This document shows, piece after piece, positions 8,366 through 39,494 of a DNA stretch of 39,666 nt. The stretch is from contig NEUO01000013.1 in the NCBI GenBank assembly GCA_002304315.1, positions 1 to 39,666 of the forward strand, written 5' to 3'. The notes beneath the pieces were generated by a model. The model saw only the letters and a program-made list of their open reading frames with translations, was not told where the DNA came from and searched no databases. A program made the position numbers and the translations under genes. Every line of letters starts with the position of its first letter. The first letter of the stretch is position 1. The DNA comes from Verrucomicrobiia bacterium Tous-C4TDCM. Its GTDB lineage: Bacteria; Verrucomicrobiota; Verrucomicrobiia; Verrucomicrobiales; Akkermansiaceae.

Positions 8366-8566
8366 ATGAACCCAATGATCAGAATCGAAATCGACACGAA
8401 CCGACTCGCGCGGCTCGGCTTTGCCGAGTTTGCCAAAGCGCTGGAGAGCTGGGAGCGGACAAAGCAGGAGGCAGTCCGCCGCGGCCTCGCCGTGCACGAG
8501 TGGACCGAGAACCTCGATGGCATCAAGCGCGCGGAGATCCGGCGCCTGGAAGGAGCGCAGCGATGA
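8366..8566 (+). CDS. Small hypothetical protein
   Basis: Encodes 66 residues, almost entirely helical and charged (LGFAEFAKALESWERTKQEA). ATG at 8366 is preceded by AAGGAG at a normal distance, a rare clear Shine-Dalgarno site in this window, and the stop overlaps the next start as ATGA. No family is recognised. Sitting directly after the helicase loader, it could be a replication accessory protein, but that is only positional. Confidence 0.6.
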   Translation: MNPMIRIEIDTNRLARLGFAEFAKALESWERTKQEAVRRGLAVHEWTENLDGIKRAEIRRLEGAQR

Positions 8567-27650: not shown

Positions 27651-30600
27651 GTGGCTAACCCGTTCGACCGTTTCGACGTCGCCGACAACAACCCGTTTGA
27701 CCGTTTCGATGAGCCGACGTCGAGCTATCCCGGCGACAAGGCGCGCCGCCTGGGCCGCGAGATCCCGAAGGCCATCGGCCAAGTGATCTCGTCGCCCGGC
27801 ACCGCCGTGCAGTCCGCGGCCCAGCTGGCCGCCGACGCCGCCGGCTGGGTGGCTAAGCGCCGCGGCGACCTGACCGACGAGGAACTCACGCGCGCCCGCG
27901 CCGCGTTGGAGTCCGCGCTGGAGCAGCGCCCGGAAATGCAGGCCGCGCAGGCCATCCGCGACGTGGGCCAGCAGATCGGCGACGTCGGCAAACGGTTCGT
28001 GCCCGATCCCGCCCGCGACCGAGAAATCGGCAGCGTCGTGGCCACCGGGCTCTCGAGCCTTGCGCCGGCCCTTGCCGCCGCCCCGTTCGGCATGATCGGC
28101 CCTGTGGCTGCCACGGCCGGCATGATGGGCGAAAGCCAGCGCGAGGACGCAGCCCAAGCCGGCGCCACGCCGTCCCAGCAGGCCGCCGCCTTTGCCCTCG
28201 GCGCGCCCGTCGGCGCCGCCTCCGAGGCCATGCTCGGTGTGCCCGCCATGCTGCGCGGCCTCCGCGGAGCCAACACGCTCCCGAAGGCCCTGCAGGGCGC
28301 GGAACAGGGCGCCGACGCCCTCATCCAGAAGGCCATCGGCGAGCTGGCCCCGCGGATCGTGCCCGTCGCCCAGCAGGCCCTGAAGAACGCCGTCCGCGAG
28401 GGCATCCAAGAGGGCATCGAGCAGATCACCGGAAATACGATCGCAAAGGATGTCGTCGGCTACGACAAGGAGCGCGATCGCACCGAAGGCCTCGGCACCG
28501 CCATGCTGGCCGGCGGCATCGTCGGCGGCGGCCTCGGCGGCACGTTGGCCGCCCTCGACACCGGCAAGAACATCCCTGAGAGCGCCGCCACCCTGAAGGC
28601 GCAGCAGGAGCAACTCATCGCCGGCAAGCGCCCGGCGCAAATGTTCCCGACCGGCACGAAGGAGCTGGCACTGCCGCAGGGCTTCGAGCGCGTCGAGACC
28701 GAGCGCGGAGTGTTCCACTACGACCCGAAGCAACTCACCGCCGACGACATCCTCACGAAGAGCAAGAACGGCCGCGAGAACGAGCTGCTGAACCTGGGAC
28801 CCGCCAGCAAGGCCGACGTCGACCAGCGCGTCGCCAAGGGCGAATCGCGCGTGGCCGTGACCGAGCGCGCTGCCGACGGCACCGAGATCCGCACCGCCGT
28901 CGCCACCGACGCCACGGCCGACGCCGTCGCGAAGGAGTTCGAGAAGAACAAGTCCGCCGGCAGCAAGATCGCCGTCGAGCCGCTCGACCGCGTGCCCGCC
29001 GAGCGCCGCGCCGCCCAGGGCGGAGGCTTTCTCGGCGACATCATCGCCAAGGACGCCGCCGACATCGCCGCCCGCCGGGCCACCGAAGCCAAGGAGCTGG
29101 CCGACCGCGCCGAGCGCCAGAAGGACCTCGATGACAAGAAGGCCCGCTTCGCCGACCGAATCCAGATGGCGCGCGACGTGTACCGGAACCCGGCCGCCAC
29201 CTTTGCCGAAATCAACGGCGCCATCAAAGGCATCGAGCTCTACGCGAACGACAACAGCATCGGCCTCACCGTCGACCAGCGCACCGAGGCGCAGCGCGCG
29301 CTGCCGGCCCTCGAACGCCGCCTCGAAGCCCTGCGCCCCGCGGAGGAAGCCCGCCGCGACGAGGAGGCCCGCGCGCGGGAGATCCTCGAGAAAGAGCAGG
29401 CCGAGAAGACCAAGCGCGCCCTGCAGGAGCAGAAGGCGAAATTCGAGGCCGAGGCCAACGCCGGCATCGGCGCCTCCGGCGCGTTCGACTACCGCACCGC
29501 CCCGATGGCCGCGCTCGAGGCCAAGGCGGAGCAAGGCGACGACAAAGCCGTCGAGTGGATCTCCCGCCGCATGGCCGAAGAAGAAGAGGCGCAGAACCGC
29601 GGCGACGACCTCCTGAAGGTGCTCCGCCGCGTGAAGCTGCCGGCCACCGACGCCGCCCTCGGAACCGAGCTGCAGCTCCTGAAGATGGAGAGCATGACCG
29701 CGCAGCAGCGGATGAACCTCATCGACAGCAAGGCCGAGGGACTCGACCCCGTCGCCGAGGCCCTGCGCGAGGCCGGCTTTACCAGCATCCAGACGCCCGC
29801 CGACGTCCTCGACGCCGTCGGCCGCGCGCTGGCCGGCGAGAAGATCTACCCGGAGACCGGCGGCGACGTGAGCGTCGAGTTTGCCCGAGGCGGTCAGCAG
29901 CAGGATGGCCCGCCCGAAGGATTCGAGGTCGTCTGGGTGACCGAATCCAAGCTGCTGTCCCTGCTTGGAGAAAAGAAAGAGACCACCGGCGCATGGGTGG
30001 TCCTGCCCAATGGCGTGCGGACCGCGCGGCAACTGATCGACAGCGGCCTGCAGGCCAGCGTCATCGACCGCGATCCGAACACGAGAGCCAGCGACCTGCG
30101 CGACTTCGCGTCCCGCCAGCTCGCCGACATGAAGCCGACGACCCTGCGCGAGGCGAGCCGGCTGGTGAGCCGCATCGTTCCGCGCGCGCAGAGCGCCGAC
30201 ACGCCACCGGCGACGCCAACCCCGGCCGCGCCGCAATCCGACGGATTCGAAATTGTGTGGTCCGACGACCGCGATCTGCTCGTGCTCTTGGGCATGCCGC
30301 GTCGCACGCCCGGCGCGTGGATGCTGCTGCCGACCGGCGTCCGAACTTACGAACAGCTGAAAGAGGCAGGCATCGACGAGGCCGTGGTGCTGACCGAGCG
30401 GCAGGACACGACCGCCGAGACGTTGACGACCATGGCTGCGCAGGCCGTGATGGACATGCGCGGCACCACATCGAGCAAGGCGCGCCAGCTGCTGCGCATT
30501 GTGCCCTACGACCCGGCCAAGGGAATTGCGGCGGCTTCGGCCAACCAGCAACCCGCGGAGCCCGGCCCCGTCCGGCCATTCTCGGAATTCCCACAGGCAG

Positions 30601-33600
30601 GCCGGCTCGTGCAGATGTACCGCGAAGCCACGGGCGGAGGCATGACGAGCAACGAAGCATATGAAGCACTGCAGGCCTACGTCGCGGCCGATAACCGCAG
30701 CGCAACTGCCCAGCGGATCGCCTTCCGCGTCCCGGAGCTGCGCAACCTGCTGGGCGAGGCGTGGAGGTTTGTCCGCGCCGATGGCAACCAGACGCCGGCC
30801 GCCGCACAGCCGCGCCGAACGCCCGAAGAGTACTCCGAGTTTTACTGGCTGACGACGAGATACCAGCAGTACCACGCCGACTACGGCGCAGGCCGCAGCA
30901 TCTCGCGAGAAACGGCCGAAGAGGTGCTCCGCAAATTTCCGTCGGTTTCGAGGGAGACCGCCGCCAAGCACGTCCAAGGCGTGCGCCAGCGCGACACCGT
31001 CCTTGCCGACTATTTGGGCCGGTTTTGGAGCTTCATCAACACCGGCAACGGCAACGACTGGAACTCGTCACGCGTGGCGCCGGCACAGCCCCGACCGGCC
31101 GCAACGCCGGCCACGCCAACCGCGCCAGCTGCGCCACAAACGCCCCCCGCGGAGCCCCAGCCAAAGCTGCAGGACTTCCCCGGATACGACCGCCTGCTCG
31201 GCGATTTCCTGTACTTCGCCAACAACGTCCAATGGCGACCGATGAGCCGCGCGCAGGCCGCCGCCGAGATCGAACGCTACGCCACCGGCACCCAAGCCGA
31301 AGCCGACGCCATCGTGGCCAACATTACCGAACGTCCGATCATCGGCGCGCTTCGGCGCCTGCGCGGCTTCGCCATTCGGCGATCGATTCAGCCGACGCTC
31401 CCCGGAATGCGCGCGCCGGCCCCGGCGCAGCCCCAGCTGACGCCCGAGATCCGCGACCGCCGCACCCGGCTCGCAAAGGTCTTCCGCGCTTTGGCCGACG
31501 TGAAGGACGAGCTGTCGTGGCAATTCAAGAGAACCAAGACCAAGAGCAAGGACCTCGCCGAGGTCGCGAAGGAATTCTCGGCAGGCCGCATCACCCTGAA
31601 GGTCACGCCCGACGAGGATGGCGAGCGCTGGACCATCGAAACAAAAGAGAACGGCCAGCCGTTGGGCGAGTATTCCGTATTCACCAATCCGGCCGTGGCA
31701 GGCCGGAAACAGCTGGTGAACGTGAGCGCCACCGAGGCCGACTCCGACAAGCAGGAGGAGGGCGGAGGCAAGAACGTCTACCAAGCGATTTTCACGTGGG
31801 CCCACAACAACGGCTACCGCGTCCTAGGGAACCACCTGTCGCTCAAAAACCAATTCCGACGGACGGTGAACATGCTGAGCAGCGCCCTGCGCTTCAACAG
31901 CACCGACCACCTCGAACCCTATCACAGCCAGGGAATCGGATCCTGGATCGAAGGAAACACCGACAACAACATCGGCGCCATGCTGGAGGCTTTGAGCAGC
32001 CGCGTGGCAATCATGGCCCCCAAGGTCTCGTCGTTGACCTACGACATCAAGACGGATACGGTCGTAGACCAAAATGACGGCCGAAAATTCACCCCCGCTG
32101 AGCTTCGAGACTTTGTGCGAGAGACTGGACTCGTTGAACAAGGAATCGGTCCGGCAACTTTGCGCGTCGTGCTCCTTGCCCGAGCCGAAATGGCCGCTAA
32201 CGCCCGCGGCCAAAGACTCCCTGCTGCGCGCGCACTTCGTGCAGCGAGCGAAGGCGTTCTCGGTCGCGTCCTCTACGCCCGAGGAAATCGACCGGCAGAC
32301 GGCAGCGCTCGACGCGGAGCTGGGAGCCGTCCTGACCAAGCTGCGCCCCGAGATCTACGCGCCGGCACCGCCCCGGAGCTGACCGACCAGCAGGTCGAGA
32401 AGGAGGTCGCGGCGATCCGCAAGGCCTTCCCGAAGCTGGTCGAGGAAAACGACGTTCAGCTGGCCAACGTGCAGCGCGCGCTTGCGCAGCGCGCCAAAGA
32501 TCTGGACGTCGACATCGGCTACGTGCCGCCGGAGGTGCAGGCCGCCGTCATGCGCGTGAAGGGCCAACGCACGCTGATCGTGCTCGGCGCGCGCGCCTAC
32601 CGGGACCGCGCCAAGGGCGCAGCGCTCCTGACCCACGAGATGGCCCACCCGTTCTGGGACATGCTGCCGTGGCAAACGAAGGACGCCCTGCGCGACCTGC
32701 ACCGCGCAGAGAAGGATACCCGCAGCGGCCCGCTCTACCGCGACGGCAAGCTCCAGACCGAACTCGCCTACGTGGAAGACATGGACGAGAACGGCCACAA
32801 GGAATGGTTTGCCGAGCGCATCGCCCGGTTGAACGAAAGCTGGGCCAAGGAGAAGATGGACGCCAGCGATTCGACGCTGCTGCGCCGCCTCGCGTATCAG
32901 CTGCGCGAATACCTCCGCCGGATTTGGCGCGCGTTCGCCGCCAACGAAGGCGTCGACCCGGACGGCAAGCTGTTCGTGGACGACTTCCGCGCCTTTTTCG
33001 CCAGCGGAGGAAACCTCGCCTTGGCCCGCCAAGCCGGCGCGGATTTTGCGCAGAGCATGATGGCCCTCGACACGCCGCTCGGCATCAGACTGCCCAGCGA
33101 GATCCGCAACCTGCAGCCGCGCTGGAACGACAAGATCCTGCGCTTCGAGAGCGCCCTCGACAAAGCCCTCTACTACGCCGGCGGAGAAAACACCGTCACG
33201 CGCGGCATCGTGCGCGACGCCCTCGCGCAGCAGACCGGCCTGAAGTATGGCCAAATCGCCACGGCGGCCCGTGAGCTGCGGGACAAACTCGCCCCGCTTG
33301 CGCGCAGCGCCGCGCGCGACGGCACCATCCGCGTGCCGAGCCAGATGCAGCAGGAGGTCGCCGCCATGACCGGCACCGAGTTTGCCAGCGGCAAAAAGCC
33401 GAAGCTCGACCCGGCCGCCGCGGAGCGCGAGTACGCCGCCGCCTTCGACAACATCCTCGAAAACTACTACCAGCAGGCCCGCGACTCCGTGGCCAAAAAC
33501 CCGCCGCGCACCTCCGCCGAGGACGTCGCCAAAGAGCGCGGCCAGGTGCTCACACCGGAGCAGGCGGCCGCAAAGCTCGAGGAGTGGAAGGCCGAGGCCC

Positions 33601-36600
33601 GGAAGCAGGGCCGCACCGGCAAGAATTCCGGCAAGACCATCCTGTCCCTTTTCGATTCGACCGGCGTCTGGAGCCAGCCGTGGCGCGATGCCGGATACAA
33701 CGTCGTCCAAGTCGACCAGAACATCGTCGGCGGCGACGGCTACGAGATGGACGTCCTGAAGATCGACCAAGAGTGGCTCATGGACAACGGCCTCGACATG
33801 GTGCACGGCGTGCTCGCCGCGTGCCCGTGCACGGAGTTTGCCGGCAGCGGAGCCCGCTGGTTCGCCATCAAGGACGCCGACGGCCGCACGGAAAAAGCCA
33901 AGCAGCTCGTGGAGCACACGCTCGCCGTGATCGAGTACCTGCAGCCCGACGGATTCTGGGCCCTCGAAAATCCCATCGGCCGTATCAAGGAGGTGACGGA
34001 GATCCCGCTCGAGCGCCTGCAGTTTCAGCCGCACAACTACGGCGACCCGTACACGAAGCGCACGCAGATTTTCGGCATGTTCAACGCCGACCTGCCGCAG
34101 GCCAACGTGGCGCCCACCGGCGGCAGCTACTCGTGGAACCTGAGCGGCAGCAGCGAAAGCAGCAAAGCCGAGCGCTCGAAGACCTTCGAGGGATTCGCGT
34201 ATTCGTTCTTCATGGCGAACAAAGACCGCGACGCGTGGGCGGAGGCCGACGAGCTCGCCCGCCAGAACGTCGAGGCCCGCCAGCGCGCCGACGACGCGCC
34301 CGCCACGACCAGCGCGCAGAGCGACCCGGATGGCCAATTCGGGCTGGAATTCGCCACCGGCGGCGGCATCCCGGAATTGCCGCAATACCCCCGCGGGGCC
34401 GAGGCCATCGCGCGCGAAATCCCGCGCGCGAAGCGCCAGGCCGACGAGTGGCGCGACATCATGCCGAGCTTTCAGGGCTGGAAGCGCGACATGGCGACCT
34501 ACGCCGCCGACGCCATCCGCAAGAAACTCACCGAGGAGCAGCGCGAGAAGATCACCGAGATCCATGATTGGTTCGGGGGCGGCGGCTCGTGGGGTTTGCA
34601 CCTCGCGCTGACCCATTTCCCGAAGGCGACCAAGCTGACGGTGCACGAATTCCTGCCGGCCCGCCTCGCCAAGATCCGCCGCTTTCACACCGAAGGCGCA
34701 GGCATCAAGGCGAGCATCGATGCGATCACGCCGCAGATCGAAACCGCCCGCGACGAAATGTACCGCGACGGCAAACCGTCCCCCGCCGCCTTTGTGACGC
34801 GGCTGAAAAAGCAATTCCCGCAGGAGCCCGACGAAGCGACGGCCGCCATCCTGCAGGCCATCGAGGACCGAGCCGACAACGACTTTGCGTCCTCGACCGA
34901 CGAAGAGGGCAACCGCGACGCGCGGAAGAGCATCGAGGACTTGCTGCGTGCCGTCGTTGACGATGCAGCCGCCGCCCAACGCGGTGCCTTCATGTTCACG
35001 ACCGGCCGCGGCGGAACCATCGAGTACCAGACCGGCGACTCCTACGCCGGCGCCGTCGAGCCCAGCGAAACCACCCTGAGCGTCTTTGACCCGCCCTACT
35101 ACAAGACTGCCGGATATTCGGCCGCCGACTCGAACGCCGGCAAGGTGCCCATTTCCATCTACGAAAAAACCGGCCGCCGCCTCAACGAACTCGCGCGCGC
35201 CGGCCATGCCGTCGTGTACACCGACTCCGCGTGGTGGATCGATGAGCGGCGCGCCGCCGAGGCCGCCGCCAAGCAGAAGACCGACCAGCCCGGCCTCGCC
35301 ATCGGCGACGTCGCCAGCGTGAAGCCCGACGAGCGCGGGACCGCGTTTGCCAATTACATCCTCGCCTCCCTCGACCATGCCGCCATCGTCCCCATCAAGA
35401 CCCGCCATGAAGTCCTCGCCGTCCATGCCCCCGGCAGCACCACGCGAGCCGGCGCCGCCGAAGAGCCGCGCCGATTTGGTGGTGACGCTGGGGGTGTTCA
35501 GCAACGGCCTGCTGACGGACAAGGAGCTGGCGCAGCTGAGCAAGCTGAGCTACCAGCAGCTACCGCCCAAGCTGCAGCGGCTGGTGGACCCGACTTGGCC
35601 GTTCCTGCAGGAGCCGGAACCGAATCCGCCCAAGTGGGTGGAGGAAATCCTCGGCAGCGACTCGAAGCCGAATACGCCGCCGCCCGCGACCAGTTCGACC
35701 TCCTGACCGAGGAGGCCGAGAAGATCCAAGCGGACATCGAAGGCCTGCGCGAGAGCCAGGAAGCCGACGCCGAAACCCAGCTGCGCGCCCGATACTCTGA
35801 GCTGCGCGACAACGAGGCCGCCCTGCGGCGAGCGTACGCGCGCGCGAGCGAGCTGCGCAGCCAGCTCGACGCCACCAAGCCGACCAAGGTCGCGCTGCCC
35901 GAAGGCGCCACCGCCGACGACATCATCGCGCAGGCGGCTCGCGTCGAGGCCCTGCCGAAGACCGACCGCAAGGGCGCGTTGATCGCCGAATGGCGCTACG
36001 GCAAGAAGCTCCGCGAGGAAGGCATCCGCGTCGGCAACGACACCGCGGAGTCCGAGGGCCAGCAGATCATGAACAAGGCGAAGGCCCGCCTCGATGACGA
36101 GTACCCCGGCTGGGAGAAGGAGGCGTACGCCAAGCCCGCCAATCGCCGTCCGCCACCACCGCCGCCGCCGCCCGACCCGGAGACCGCCCAGGAGGCCGAC
36201 CTCGAACCGTCGCCGTTTGCCGAGCCGCCGAAGGACATGCCCGTGCGCAGCGGCAAGATGCTCGAGCTTTTCGGCAACAGCTCCGTCAAACCGACCATCC
36301 TCGAGCGAACGTGGGAGCGCGTCGCCGACGTGTTCCGCGGCATCCGTGGCAGCGTGCCCGAGTTGCCCGCCTTTGCCGGCGCCCGTTGGAACCAGAGCGA
36401 CCCGTTCATCAAGGAGCACGGGCCCAGCTTTTACGACGGAATCAAATCGTTTTACCGCACGCTGGTCAGCGCCAACGACGGCATCCAGCGCGACGCGGAG
36501 CAGCAGGTCGCCGAGATCACCCGCCCCCTCATCGAGGCCGGCGGCCGATTCAACGCGAGCGATTACGCCAAGCTGCGCCGCTACCAAGAGGCCGCGCGCG

Positions 36601-39494
36601 CCGCACGTGCGGAGAACCGCCCGGTTCCCGCGGCCACGCAGATCGCGATCGAGGCCCTGAACGCCAAGCTCGAGTCGCACCCGTACGTGATGTTCAACCG
36701 GATCGTGCTGCTGCTCGACCTGAAGTGGCGCCACGAGAACCTCAAGGACTCGCAGGGCAACCCGATCCGCCTCCCGGCCGGCGTCAACGAAGAGGAAATC
36801 AAAGCCGAGCTCGAGCGCCTGCAGCTGGCCGCCGTCGCGCAGGGCCACCGCGACCTCATCCTTGCCGCGGTCACGAAGCACATCGCGCTCGTGAAGAAGG
36901 TGGCCGACGACCTGAGCGCCCGCGACCTCATGACGCCGCAGGCCGTGCGGAACACGTTCTACTTCCCCCACGTCACCCTGCAGGTGACCCGCGGCGGCCA
37001 GACCGAGGAGCGCGAGCTGCGCCCGAGCCGAGTCCGTCCAGGCACCGAGGCCGACTTCCGCGGTTACCTCGAAGATCCGGTCGGCAGCACGAAGCCCATC
37101 GAGACCGACTACGTGGCCGCCATGTACTACCACCTCGTGCAGGTCGGCGCCCACAACACCAAGGCGGACGCAGTCCGCGACTTCGCGCGGCCCTACGACG
37201 TGCGCGGCGAGGTGGAGAAGCGCGCCAAGGAGCTCGCCGCCGAGCGCGGCCAATCGGTCAGCTGGGAGCAGACCTTTCACGAGGAGTATGCGCCGCGTGG
37301 ATACGTCCTCTACGGCACCGAGAGCCGCGACGCATTCCCGAGCATCAACGTGGACCGCGACAAGCTCGCGCGCCGGCTGGGCGTCATGCTGACGAGCGAC
37401 GACCTGCAGCAGCAGCTGAAGCAGCTTGGCGTGCCCGTCACGCTGCTACCCGAGGACTTGCGCGAAACCCTGCAGCAGGGCCAGCGCGAGACGTGGGTGG
37501 TGCCGGCCCGCGTGGCCGAGGCCCTCCGCGGCATCGCCGACCGCCAGAGCCAGCATGACGGCGCCATCGACACCGCCGTCAAAGGAACGCTGCGCGCGTG
37601 GAAGAGCTGGAAACTTTTCATGCCGTGGAACCACGTGCGCTACGAGTGGAACAACGCCGTGGCCGACATCGAGAAGGTCGTGTCCGCCAGCCCGGCGACG
37701 TTGCGCCACCTGCCGCAGGCCGCCCGCGAGATCCGCAGCCTGTGGCTCGGCGAGGCGCCCGGCGCCGACCTGCAGCAGGCCGTGCGTTTGGGTGTCATCA
37801 ACACCGTGACGGCGCAGGAGATGTCCGCGCTGACGCGCCTGCCGAACTTCCGCGCGTTCGAGTCGTGGTCGGAAAAGCTGCAGGCCGAGACGACCTCCAT
37901 CCTTTCGGCGCCCATCGCCAACGCCACCCGGCTCTTTGGCGGCACCGGCGTCCTGGGCCGCGTCAGCTCCGTCGAGGAAAGCGCCTACCGGGAGGCCGTG
38001 TTCCGGTATGCCAAATTCATCGGCGACCTGAAGGCCATCCGCGCGAACGCCCGGCCCGCCTACGCCGGAGCCTACTGGCGCGACATCGAAGCCATCAAGG
38101 ACTCGCGACCCGGCGCCGCCGACGCCGCCGTGCGCAAGGCCGCAGCCATCAGCAAGGCGACGTTCGGCGATTACGGCGACCTGTCGGTGTTGGGCCAATC
38201 CGTCCGCGACCGCCTCGTGCCGTTTTACAGCTGGCTCGAGATCAACTTCCGCTACCACGCGAACCTGCTGCGCAACATGCGCGACATGGTGCGCGCCGGA
38301 GAAGCCAGCCGCGCCGAGGCCGCCGGCACCGGAGCCCGCGCTGCCGCCGTGTTCGCCGCCGGGTTCACCGCGCGCGCCGCCGGAGGCATCGCCCTGCGCC
38401 TCGCGCTGCCGTACGCCGCGGTCATCCTTTGGAATTCGACCGGCGACCGCGACGAGCTGGAGGAGCTGCTGAGCGACGAGGACAAGCGCCGCTTCCACAT
38501 CATCGTGGGCGAGAGCAGCGACGGGAACACGACGCTGCGCGACGGCCGCAAGGTGGAGGTCATCTACGCCGCCACCGCCCTCATGGACGTCCTCAAGTGG
38601 TTTTCCGGGCCGCAGCTGGCCCAGGCCGCCGGCTCGTGGCTCAATGGCCGCCAGACGTTCCCGCAGGCTTTCACCACGTGGCGCGACGGCGTGGCCAACG
38701 ACCTCGCGAACAACCTCGCGCAGTCCGTCGGCCCCGCGTTCAAGATCCCGTACACGCTCGCCAGCGGCAAAAACCCGTTCCCCGACGTCGCCGACCAGCG
38801 CACCATCCCGAGCTACGACATGCGCCGGACCATCCTCGGCCAGATGACCGACGAGGCCACTGCCGACGTCATCGAGCGCACGGCCAACAAGGACTACTAC
38901 GCCGCCAAGGACCTCGGCGATTGGGCGAAGCAACTCATCCTGCAGGTCCGCCAGCGCGACCCCGACTCGTGGGCGTTCTACGAGATCAAGGACCGCGCGC
39001 AGGACTTCCTGCAGGAGCGCACCGGCCGCAAACGTTCGAGCGACTACGACGCGCCCGACCAGCAGGTCCTTCGCAACTTCCGCCGCGCCATCTTCCGCGG
39101 CGACGTCGAGAAGGCCGCGCAGTTTTACCTCCGCCTGCTGGACTACGGATACACCGCCGAACGGTTCGCCGCGAGCATCCGCGCCCAAGACCCGCTGGCC
39201 CAGCTGCCCAAGGAGGACGGCACCCGCCGAGCCTTCGTGGACAGCCTGAACCCGACCGACCGCGAGATCCTGCAGCGCGCCTACGCCTACTACACGCGCA
39301 TCAACGCGAGCCAGGGCCGCGAGGCGCGCCTGTTCCCGCGGGCCGAGACCGGCGAGCGAGGCCTCGAACGCTACCGGCTGGCGCCGCGCACCGCGGAGCT
39401 TGGCCGCATGATGGAGGCCGGCGCCGCCGCGACCGAGGAAGACGAGCTGGCGCGGGCCGAACGCGCCCTCCGCAAGAGCCTGCAAAAACAGTGA
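27651..39494 (+). CDS. Giant polyvalent virion protein: zincin, C5-type and DPPY methylases
   Basis: A 3947-residue protein from GTG 27651. In order: NPFDRFD twice (residues 3-9, 14-20); hydrophobic segments (about 130-160, 280-302); coiled coils (about 467-603); repeat pair A (752-850, 863-958); repeat triplet B (973-1048, 1056-1137, 1172-1247); an alpha/beta domain (about 1263-1490) with GGGKNVYQAIFTWAHNNGYR; an HEMAH zinc peptidase (His1662-Glu1663, His1666, later EWFAER); a cytosine-methylase domain (about 1995-2200; Cys-Pro-Cys2060, ENP2106-2108); an amino-methylase domain (DWFGGGGSWG from 2306, DPPY 2480-2483); a coiled coil (2669-2745); an eight-proline hinge; and a helical C-terminal region like the large polyvalent-protein domains. 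It is presumably packaged and ejected with the DNA, methylating it and removing host defence proteins. Two linkers carry nested ORFs. Confidence 0.85.
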   Translation: MANPFDRFDVADNNPFDRFDEPTSSYPGDKARRLGREIPKAIGQVISSPGTAVQSAAQLAADAAGWVAKRRGDLTDEELTRARAALESALEQRPEMQAAQAIRDVGQQIGDVGKRFVPDPARDREIGSVVATGLSSLAPALAAAPFGMIGPVAATAGMMGESQREDAAQAGATPSQQAAAFALGAPVGAASEAMLGVPAMLRGLRGANTLPKALQGAEQGADALIQKAIGELAPRIVPVAQQALKNAVREGIQEGIEQITGNTIAKDVVGYDKERDRTEGLGTAMLAGGIVGGGLGGTLAALDTGKNIPESAATLKAQQEQLIAGKRPAQMFPTGTKELALPQGFERVETERGVFHYDPKQLTADDILTKSKNGRENELLNLGPASKADVDQRVAKGESRVAVTERAADGTEIRTAVATDATADAVAKEFEKNKSAGSKIAVEPLDRVPAERRAAQGGGFLGDIIAKDAADIAARRATEAKELADRAERQKDLDDKKARFADRIQMARDVYRNPAATFAEINGAIKGIELYANDNSIGLTVDQRTEAQRALPALERRLEALRPAEEARRDEEARAREILEKEQAEKTKRALQEQKAKFEAEANAGIGASGAFDYRTAPMAALEAKAEQGDDKAVEWISRRMAEEEEAQNRGDDLLKVLRRVKLPATDAALGTELQLLKMESMTAQQRMNLIDSKAEGLDPVAEALREAGFTSIQTPADVLDAVGRALAGEKIYPETGGDVSVEFARGGQQQDGPPEGFEVVWVTESKLLSLLGEKKETTGAWVVLPNGVRTARQLIDSGLQASVIDRDPNTRASDLRDFASRQLADMKPTTLREASRLVSRIVPRAQSADTPPATPTPAAPQSDGFEIVWSDDRDLLVLLGMPRRTPGAWMLLPTGVRTYEQLKEAGIDEAVVLTERQDTTAETLTTMAAQAVMDMRGTTSSKARQLLRIVPYDPAKGIAAASANQQPAEPGPVRPFSEFPQAGRLVQMYREATGGGMTSNEAYEALQAYVAADNRSATAQRIAFRVPELRNLLGEAWRFVRADGNQTPAAAQPRRTPEEYSEFYWLTTRYQQYHADYGAGRSISRETAEEVLRKFPSVSRETAAKHVQGVRQRDTVLADYLGRFWSFINTGNGNDWNSSRVAPAQPRPAATPATPTAPAAPQTPPAEPQPKLQDFPGYDRLLGDFLYFANNVQWRPMSRAQAAAEIERYATGTQAEADAIVANITERPIIGALRRLRGFAIRRSIQPTLPGMRAPAPAQPQLTPEIRDRRTRLAKVFRALADVKDELSWQFKRTKTKSKDLAEVAKEFSAGRITLKVTPDEDGERWTIETKENGQPLGEYSVFTNPAVAGRKQLVNVSATEADSDKQEEGGGKNVYQAIFTWAHNNGYRVLGNHLSLKNQFRRTVNMLSSALRFNSTDHLEPYHSQGIGSWIEGNTDNNIGAMLEALSSRVAIMAPKVSSLTYDIKTDTVVDQNDGRKFTPAELRDFVRETGLVEQGIGPATLRVVLLARAEMAANARGQRLPAARALRAASEGVLGRVLYARGNRPADGSARRGAGSRPDQAAPRDLRAGTAPELTDQQVEKEVAAIRKAFPKLVEENDVQLANVQRALAQRAKDLDVDIGYVPPEVQAAVMRVKGQRTLIVLGARAYRDRAKGAALLTHEMAHPFWDMLPWQTKDALRDLHRAEKDTRSGPLYRDGKLQTELAYVEDMDENGHKEWFAERIARLNESWAKEKMDASDSTLLRRLAYQLREYLRRIWRAFAANEGVDPDGKLFVDDFRAFFASGGNLALARQAGADFAQSMMALDTPLGIRLPSEIRNLQPRWNDKILRFESALDKALYYAGGENTVTRGIVRDALAQQTGLKYGQIATAARELRDKLAPLARSAARDGTIRVPSQMQQEVAAMTGTEFASGKKPKLDPAAAEREYAAAFDNILENYYQQARDSVAKNPPRTSAEDVAKERGQVLTPEQAAAKLEEWKAEARKQGRTGKNSGKTILSLFDSTGVWSQPWRDAGYNVVQVDQNIVGGDGYEMDVLKIDQEWLMDNGLDMVHGVLAACPCTEFAGSGARWFAIKDADGRTEKAKQLVEHTLAVIEYLQPDGFWALENPIGRIKEVTEIPLERLQFQPHNYGDPYTKRTQIFGMFNADLPQANVAPTGGSYSWNLSGSSESSKAERSKTFEGFAYSFFMANKDRDAWAEADELARQNVEARQRADDAPATTSAQSDPDGQFGLEFATGGGIPELPQYPRGAEAIAREIPRAKRQADEWRDIMPSFQGWKRDMATYAADAIRKKLTEEQREKITEIHDWFGGGGSWGLHLALTHFPKATKLTVHEFLPARLAKIRRFHTEGAGIKASIDAITPQIETARDEMYRDGKPSPAAFVTRLKKQFPQEPDEATAAILQAIEDRADNDFASSTDEEGNRDARKSIEDLLRAVVDDAAAAQRGAFMFTTGRGGTIEYQTGDSYAGAVEPSETTLSVFDPPYYKTAGYSAADSNAGKVPISIYEKTGRRLNELARAGHAVVYTDSAWWIDERRAAEAAAKQKTDQPGLAIGDVASVKPDERGTAFANYILASLDHAAIVPIKTRHEVLAVHAPGSTTRAGAAEEPRRFGGDAGGVQQRPADGQGAGAAEQAELPAATAQAAAAGGPDLAVPAGAGTESAQVGGGNPRQRLEAEYAAARDQFDLLTEEAEKIQADIEGLRESQEADAETQLRARYSELRDNEAALRRAYARASELRSQLDATKPTKVALPEGATADDIIAQAARVEALPKTDRKGALIAEWRYGKKLREEGIRVGNDTAESEGQQIMNKAKARLDDEYPGWEKEAYAKPANRRPPPPPPPPDPETAQEADLEPSPFAEPPKDMPVRSGKMLELFGNSSVKPTILERTWERVADVFRGIRGSVPELPAFAGARWNQSDPFIKEHGPSFYDGIKSFYRTLVSANDGIQRDAEQQVAEITRPLIEAGGRFNASDYAKLRRYQEAARAARAENRPVPAATQIAIEALNAKLESHPYVMFNRIVLLLDLKWRHENLKDSQGNPIRLPAGVNEEEIKAELERLQLAAVAQGHRDLILAAVTKHIALVKKVADDLSARDLMTPQAVRNTFYFPHVTLQVTRGGQTEERELRPSRVRPGTEADFRGYLEDPVGSTKPIETDYVAAMYYHLVQVGAHNTKADAVRDFARPYDVRGEVEKRAKELAAERGQSVSWEQTFHEEYAPRGYVLYGTESRDAFPSINVDRDKLARRLGVMLTSDDLQQQLKQLGVPVTLLPEDLRETLQQGQRETWVVPARVAEALRGIADRQSQHDGAIDTAVKGTLRAWKSWKLFMPWNHVRYEWNNAVADIEKVVSASPATLRHLPQAAREIRSLWLGEAPGADLQQAVRLGVINTVTAQEMSALTRLPNFRAFESWSEKLQAETTSILSAPIANATRLFGGTGVLGRVSSVEESAYREAVFRYAKFIGDLKAIRANARPAYAGAYWRDIEAIKDSRPGAADAAVRKAAAISKATFGDYGDLSVLGQSVRDRLVPFYSWLEINFRYHANLLRNMRDMVRAGEASRAEAAGTGARAAAVFAAGFTARAAGGIALRLALPYAAVILWNSTGDRDELEELLSDEDKRRFHIIVGESSDGNTTLRDGRKVEVIYAATALMDVLKWFSGPQLAQAAGSWLNGRQTFPQAFTTWRDGVANDLANNLAQSVGPAFKIPYTLASGKNPFPDVADQRTIPSYDMRRTILGQMTDEATADVIERTANKDYYAAKDLGDWAKQLILQVRQRDPDSWAFYEIKDRAQDFLQERTGRKRSSDYDAPDQQVLRNFRRAIFRGDVEKAAQFYLRLLDYGYTAERFAASIRAQDPLAQLPKEDGTRRAFVDSLNPTDREILQRAYAYYTRINASQGREARLFPRAETGERGLERYRLAPRTAELGRMMEAGAAATEEDELARAERALRKSLQKQ
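29905..30525 (+). repeat. Tandem protein repeat A (two copies of about 88 residues)
   Basis: Copy one begins GFEVVWVTESKLLSLLG and copy two GFEIVWSDDRDLLVLLG. Both continue with GAW(V/M).LP.GVRT..QL and end IVP. They align over nearly their whole length at low identity, so the duplication is old. Possibly a small globular alpha/beta module. Confidence 0.75.
30568..31391 (+). repeat. Repeat B (three copies of about 76 residues)
   Basis: Copies begin FSEFPQAGRLVQMYREA, PEEYSEFYWLTTRYQQY and LQDFPGYDRLLGDFLYF. Each has a following S-x-x-x-A helix, then a helix ending in L-x-x-x-W/G-x-F. The units are separated by Pro/Ala linkers (for example AAPQTPPAEPQP). All are helical; no known family is recognised. 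Confidence 0.65.
32074..32382 (+). CDS. Nested ORF 1 inside the giant gene (+1 frame)
   Basis: A 102-codon ORF with ATG at 32074, wholly inside the giant gene in the +1 frame. In the 70 codons from 32148 only 10 nested-frame codons end in A or T, against 34 in the giant frame, although the giant frame is GC-biased on both sides. The nested product reads as a soluble helical protein (SFETLCERLDSLNKESVRQL, SSTPEEIDRQTAALDAELGA). The overlapping giant-frame residues (RGQRLPAARALRAASEG...) look like a passive translation. It lies in the linker between the alpha/beta domain and the zinc peptidase. It could be a separate protein from an internal start or a relic of an older gene. Function unknown. 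Confidence 0.6.
   Translation: MTAENSPPLSFETLCERLDSLNKESVRQLCASCSLPEPKWPLTPAAKDSLLRAHFVQRAKAFSVASSTPEEIDRQTAALDAELGAVLTKLRPEIYAPAPPRS
35407..35706 (+). CDS. Nested ORF 2 inside the giant gene (+1 frame)
   Basis: A 99-codon ORF with ATG at 35407 in a CCGCCATG context matching other phage genes here, wholly inside the giant gene in the +1 frame. Over 40 codons from 35472, 28 giant-frame codons end in A or T but only 2 of the nested-frame codons do, a strong sign that selection acts on the nested frame. The product has a Pro-rich start, a helical core (DLVVTLGVFSNGLLTDKELA, QLSKLSYQQLPPKLQRLVDP) and a Pro/Ser tail. In the giant frame this stretch is low-complexity Ala/Gly/Gln. It occupies the linker after the DPPY methylase domain. 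No family is recognised; a methylase partner or independent small protein is possible. Confidence 0.7.
   Translation: MKSSPSMPPAAPREPAPPKSRADLVVTLGVFSNGLLTDKELAQLSKLSYQQLPPKLQRLVDPTWPFLQEPEPNPPKWVEEILGSDSKPNTPPPATSSTS

Follow-up and report, generated by a model that had tools for sequence, protein, structure and literature searches.

A +1-frame coding signature at a module joint of a giant polyvalent phage gene, and nested genes of the same kind in other phages

A second coding frame inside a giant modular gene

The window analysed here, a stretch of 39,666 nucleotides, is one contig (G000 contig 35) of a draft genome, which comprises 206 contigs and is 72% complete, and carries a phage whose last gene is a giant open reading frame of 3,947 aa with a GTG start (27651-39494; this and all window features given below lie on the + strand). 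Within this gene an earlier note had pointed to a small open reading frame in the +1 frame just behind a methylase domain, raising the question of whether a second gene is encoded there and how the giant frame passes through it. The domain set of the giant product bears the hallmarks of a polyvalent phage protein (PMC5512222): it is very large and multidomain with an LPD-type domain (LPD37, PF18853, 31488-32174, 65 bits against a cut-off of 27), and it has a zincin-like metallopeptidase module, for which no Pfam model match was obtained, with a HEMAH motif of the HEXXH type recognized by eye. The DNA-modifying domains are a cytosine methyltransferase domain (aa 1989-2203, 33615-34259), assigned by its match to phrog_757 (E 1.7e-36), and a putative DNA adenine methylase domain (34551-35442), assigned by eye from its FGGGG...DPPYY motifs; the latter gave no family-model or database match, and a search for its relatives returned spurious matches only. 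A coiled coil and a C-terminal module (35661-39491) follow.

The small reading frame, nested-2 (35407-35706), extends from an ATG in the phage's CCGCCATG context to a TGA stop and encodes 99 aa in the +1 frame relative to the giant ORF, as described in the earlier note. The codon count given there was reproduced exactly: over 40 codons from position 35472, 28 end in A or T in the giant frame versus 2 in the nested frame, with GC3 values of 0.30 and 0.95, respectively. A frame HMM assigns 67 codons (35460-35660, 201 bases) to the +1 frame with a log-likelihood ratio of 71-91, depending on the table used. This is indeed the strongest frame switch within the giant ORF, the runner-up being located at about 32211, and no internal switch in a host background of 142 genes (69,305 codons) scores above 31, let alone above 50. 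The positional GC of the nested frame (0.67/0.37/0.91) is as expected for coding sequence, and the coding signature in this alternative frame exceeds background, one of the properties expected of a functional overlapping gene. A +1 coding signature inside the giant ORF, the observation at the core of the earlier note, is therefore confirmed.

The signature is shorter than the ORF at both ends. It begins 53 bases after the nested-2 ATG, as 35407-35459 scores for the giant frame (end of the methylase), and it stops 46 bases before the nested-2 stop, as the last 15 codons (35661-35706) also score for the giant frame, which encodes a coiled coil there and is conserved in relatives. Since neither the proposed start nor the last 15 codons carry a +1 signature, nested-2 could be a truncated fragment. 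The start context had been said to match that of the other phage genes, and about 5-6 of the 17 starts called do carry CCGCC- or CGACC-ATG, as against 19 of 360 ATGs; the ATG at 35407 thus has a context usual for this phage, but the first 18 codons behind it lack the +1 signature. No Shine-Dalgarno site was found for nested-2, and several other genes of the phage are likewise devoid of one. Several phage gene starts (18950, 21058, 22822, 23503, 25471 and 27651) have no clear Shine-Dalgarno sequence but have in common a CCGCC- or CGACC- ahead of the start codon.

Across 35460-35660 the giant frame encodes an Ala/Gly/Gln-rich stretch predicted to be coil. Single-sequence AlphaFold models, of low confidence for both frames, show four helices at a pLDDT of about 60 for nested-2, whereas the giant frame is modelled as coil; they were too weak to support a fold search. 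The synonymous codons of the patch lean towards G-ending (39 versus 28.5 expected, p 0.0009), unlike the bias of the phage, and those of the methylase domain lean the opposite way. This suggests a separate origin of nested-2, the test being a modest one in that one ordinary window among 358 reaches a similar z. Searches for nested-2 homologs by tblastn in phage and plasmid collections, in two IMG/VR scans and in about 460 sampled genomes gave nothing beyond chance, as did comparison with Pfam, PHROGs, NCBIfam, PADLOC and the PDB. In these searches a homologous product in other genomes was found neither for nested-2 nor for its methylase module. A composite of frame 0 and the +1 frame, taken as a single domain, matched no family.

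Module joints in the giant gene and its relatives

Scans of IMG/VR and of genomes recovered relatives of the giant gene (L004, L005 and L010-L015). The C-terminal module is common to all of them, with 52-65% identity in most and 33% in the most distant one, and most also have the N-terminal and zincin modules, the latter being conserved in L004, L010 and L015. The methylase block and the nested-2 patch are absent from L004, L010-L015 and the other relatives found. As these relatives share modules with the giant protein of the window but have neither the methylase block nor the patch, the patch lies where an exchangeable module ends on its 3' side, and its right border is the conserved C-terminal part of the protein. 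The +1 coding signature of nested-2 lies at a module joint with conserved giant-frame flanks. Linkers are variable in this family of giant proteins. Three of the relatives, L015, L005 and L013, also contain +1 patches, which are weaker; those in L005 and L013 are short and without an evident start. In L015, a P-loop domain of the giant protein (L015:7880-8539; by eye, probably zeta-toxin-like) is adjoined by a +1 ORF from an ATG at 8541.

A second nested ORF of the window, nested-1 (32074-32382, +1 frame, 102 aa), is situated at the 3' end of another such module, LPD37. A genome search identified a homolog of nested-1 encoded in G405, with 44% identity in the +1 frame (E 2.4e-8). When the window was compared with G405 with synonymous codons randomised, the giant frame proved to be conserved over 32073-32180, and conservation of the +1 frame spans roughly 32169-32363; in the overlap of the conserved frames, the giant frame shows only a marginal excess. 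This pattern indicates a change of conserved frame common to two distant elements. No nested-1 homologs were found in IMG/VR, and when the nested ORFs were compared with one another, a clear likeness was seen only between nested-1 and its G405 counterpart. Conservation of the nested frame in another genome has been obtained for nested-1 but not for nested-2. The nested-1 homolog in G405 (L050, contig 24) is located in an integrase/primase-like island, as judged by eye, near large helicase and methylase-like genes; this is possibly a defence island.

The earlier note had taken the shared relative frame of nested-1 and nested-2 as a sign of a repeated mechanism. A 67-codon patch leaves the giant frame open with a probability of 0.79 if it is in +1 and of 0.25 if it is in +2; a +1 patch is tolerated because a stop in the giant frame then needs a T in the third codon position. 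The shared frame of the two ORFs is therefore partly expected by ascertainment. Of the first interpretation, the second coding frame at a module joint stands, while the argument from the shared frame is weakened by this stop-codon bias, and a start of nested-2 at 35407, its expression and a role as a regulator gained no support.

+1 patches in the giant genes of finished genomes, and selection on them in Erwinia phages

The frame HMM used on the window was also run on annotated giant polyvalent genes, and it detected +1 patches in three of them, from Pseudomonas phage 8P, Erwinia phage PEp14 and a plasmid of Massilia violaceinigra. Two such patches are present in the giant, DarB-like gene of PEp14, at codons 841-886 and 1582-1675. 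The larger nested ORF of this gene (L060:10431-10745; the same in L063 and L064) is in the +1 frame, TnpV-like and unannotated; the second (L060:8193-8423) is likewise in +1 and unrelated to the first. In comparisons among the Erwinia phages PEp14, Pavtok and Stean, dN/dS values determined by simple counting, and to be read with the caution usual for overlapping frames (cf. PMC7531306), are 0.20-0.25 in the +1 frame versus 0.99-2.46 in the giant frame for the larger nested ORF, and 0.36-0.53 versus 0.69-1.47 for the patch of smaller contrast (codons 841-886). A selection scan over the whole gene, independent of the HMM, gives both patches the highest ranks among about 215-220 windows in each of three pairwise comparisons. 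In the PEp14 giant gene, where selection can be measured, it thus bears out, for both of the two patches, the composition test by which nested-2 was flagged.

The start and the stop of the larger nested ORF are kept in PEp14, Pavtok and Stean, in which the giant gene is intact. Its product aligns with the C-terminal end of the profile phrog_938 (E 1.8e-19), whereas the match to Pfam TnpV (4e-4) falls short of the cut-off. In Sinorhizobium phage PBC5, its homolog (47% identity, E 3e-23) forms the end of gp22, in frame with that gene, and the remainder of the giant is a separate gene, gp21, in another frame. The proposal that neighbouring genes came to be read through in another frame gains backing from this gp22/gp21 split together with the Erwinia nested ORFs. 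In phage 8P, the nested ORF (L058:17850-18122, +1, 90 aa, unannotated) starts with MQELYRPKSYPVP exactly at the frame switch, and in the Massilia plasmid a +1 ORF (L059:16116-16724) crosses the tail of a domain resembling LPD37 and shows +1 coding signal on either side of that tail, as in nested-1. Nested genes of the same kind are real and under selection in other phages. They are unannotated in PEp14, Pavtok, Stean and 8P, since gene callers usually keep the longest ORF only, and segments that are mere linkers are credited to the giant protein instead. No reports of such nested genes were found in the open-licence papers searched.

The polyvalent proteins described for phages and conjugative elements (PMC5512222), which include the DarB-like proteins of PEp14 and Pavtok and PBC5 gp21/gp22, are likewise giant and modular, combine zincin-like peptidase, LPD and DNA methylase domains, and exchange modules between relatives; what distinguishes the window is that its giant gene harbours small +1 genes where modules meet. 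In the main text of that study, the terms "overlapping", "frameshift" and "separate genes" are absent. The nested gene of the Erwinia Pavtokvirus phages (PEp14 L060:10431-10745) agrees with nested-2 in its +1 frame, its size class and its position at a module joint, and in both cases the giant frame across it is an unconstrained polar linker. Unlike nested-2, it has a relative of known family, close relatives and demonstrated purifying selection; the two products are not homologous, and the Erwinia gene precedes a methylase module whereas nested-2 follows one. Fully embedded phage genes in the +1 frame are exemplified by Rz1 within Rz, a pair that is annotated in PEp14 as well. Like nested-2, Rz1 is a small gene wholly inside another on the same strand in a different frame; here, however, the enclosing gene is giant and modular, and there is no relationship among the nested ORFs.

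Possible origins of the nested-2 patch

By analogy with these nested genes, we consider it fairly probable that 35460-35660 represents a small gene that became caught at a module joint, which the giant frame traverses as a linker and which is probably still expressed. The segment would have evolved as +1-frame coding sequence, and the small gene, whole or nearly whole, would have arrived with the methylase module or settled just downstream of it, where the conserved C-terminal module adjoins. The giant protein would read the patch as a disordered linker, its frame remaining open because GC-rich codons rarely have a T in the third position, and the nested ORF would yield a small, mostly helical protein of its own from the ATG at 35407 or from a later start. 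The homologs and the evidence for selection pertain to the other nested ORFs, and nested-2 itself has no homolog; its present translation and selection, its start site and any role are inferred.

The main rival is a dead scar, left either by a compensating pair of indels in a former in-frame linker or C-terminal extension or by a foreign fragment inserted out of frame, with translation of the giant frame only. Compensatory frameshift pairs are a documented evolutionary process (PMC8935012) and would likewise leave a shifted-frame segment between conserved flanks; the variable linkers of the family, the missing homologs of nested-2, the lack of +1 signature at its proposed ends and the short patches without evident start in L005 and L013 all fit such a scar. 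Such pairs, however, predict in-frame ancestors and no ongoing selection in the shifted frame. The best comparable patches, those of the Erwinia phages, differ in being under purifying selection in +1. The relatives in which an ancestral in-frame version was sought lack the segment altogether. The codon bias of the patch, unlike that of the surrounding gene, speaks against an old in-frame linker, though not against a foreign fragment. On balance we regard a scar as rather unlikely.

The other explanations carry far less weight than either a lodged gene or a scar. Programmed +1 (or -2) frameshifting, in which some ribosomes would slip near 35460 and terminate at 35706 to give a shorter polyprotein with a new tail behind the methylase, could account for the frame change of nested-1, whose position agrees between the window and G405 although neither start codon conservation nor a shared start is seen nearby. 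No shared slippery sequence was recognized by eye at the patch borders, the nested ORFs of 8P and PEp14 each begin with an ATG that coincides with the patch start or shortly precedes it, and in PEp14 a +1 stop lies just upstream of the nested ORF; as ORFs with their own conserved start are left unexplained, we think frameshifting very improbable. Two false indels in a metagenome contig are slightly harder still to credit: the window is a draft-genome contig, but neither patch border has a long homopolymer, the remainder of the 3,947-codon ORF is intact and the same architecture recurs in finished phage genomes. Long shifted open frames are common in GC-rich DNA, for which reason the bare length of nested-2 was discarded as evidence, and a 99-aa open frame is not significant by itself. 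That the giant frame alone has always been coding and the +1 signature arose by chance is nevertheless the most remote of these explanations, given a score of 71-91 where the 69,305 host codons reach 31 at most, which already makes it very unlikely, and the natural positional GC and predicted helices seen in the +1 frame only.

Returning to a lodged gene, a wider proposal, which we put forward tentatively and at somewhat less than even chances, is that giant polyvalent genes of phages and related elements commonly carry complete, selected but unannotated small +1 genes at their joints, that these riders travel with modules and are passed over by the giant frame as a dispensable linker, and that nested-2 is one of them. 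Rider genes may be partners or controls of the accompanying module, and a tie between nested-2 and the module preceding it is our guess. If general, this would mean that giant polyvalent genes grow by swallowing neighbours together with the small companions that overlap them, with GC-rich codons keeping the frame open; it also points to overlooked phage proteins that are encoded alongside injected effectors. A further feature of module joints is a short EFA(T/S/R)G-like motif, found in the window at 29869-29895, 33378-33398 and 34347-34361 and also in L004, L010 and L013, at which the internal peptidase of the giant protein may cut.
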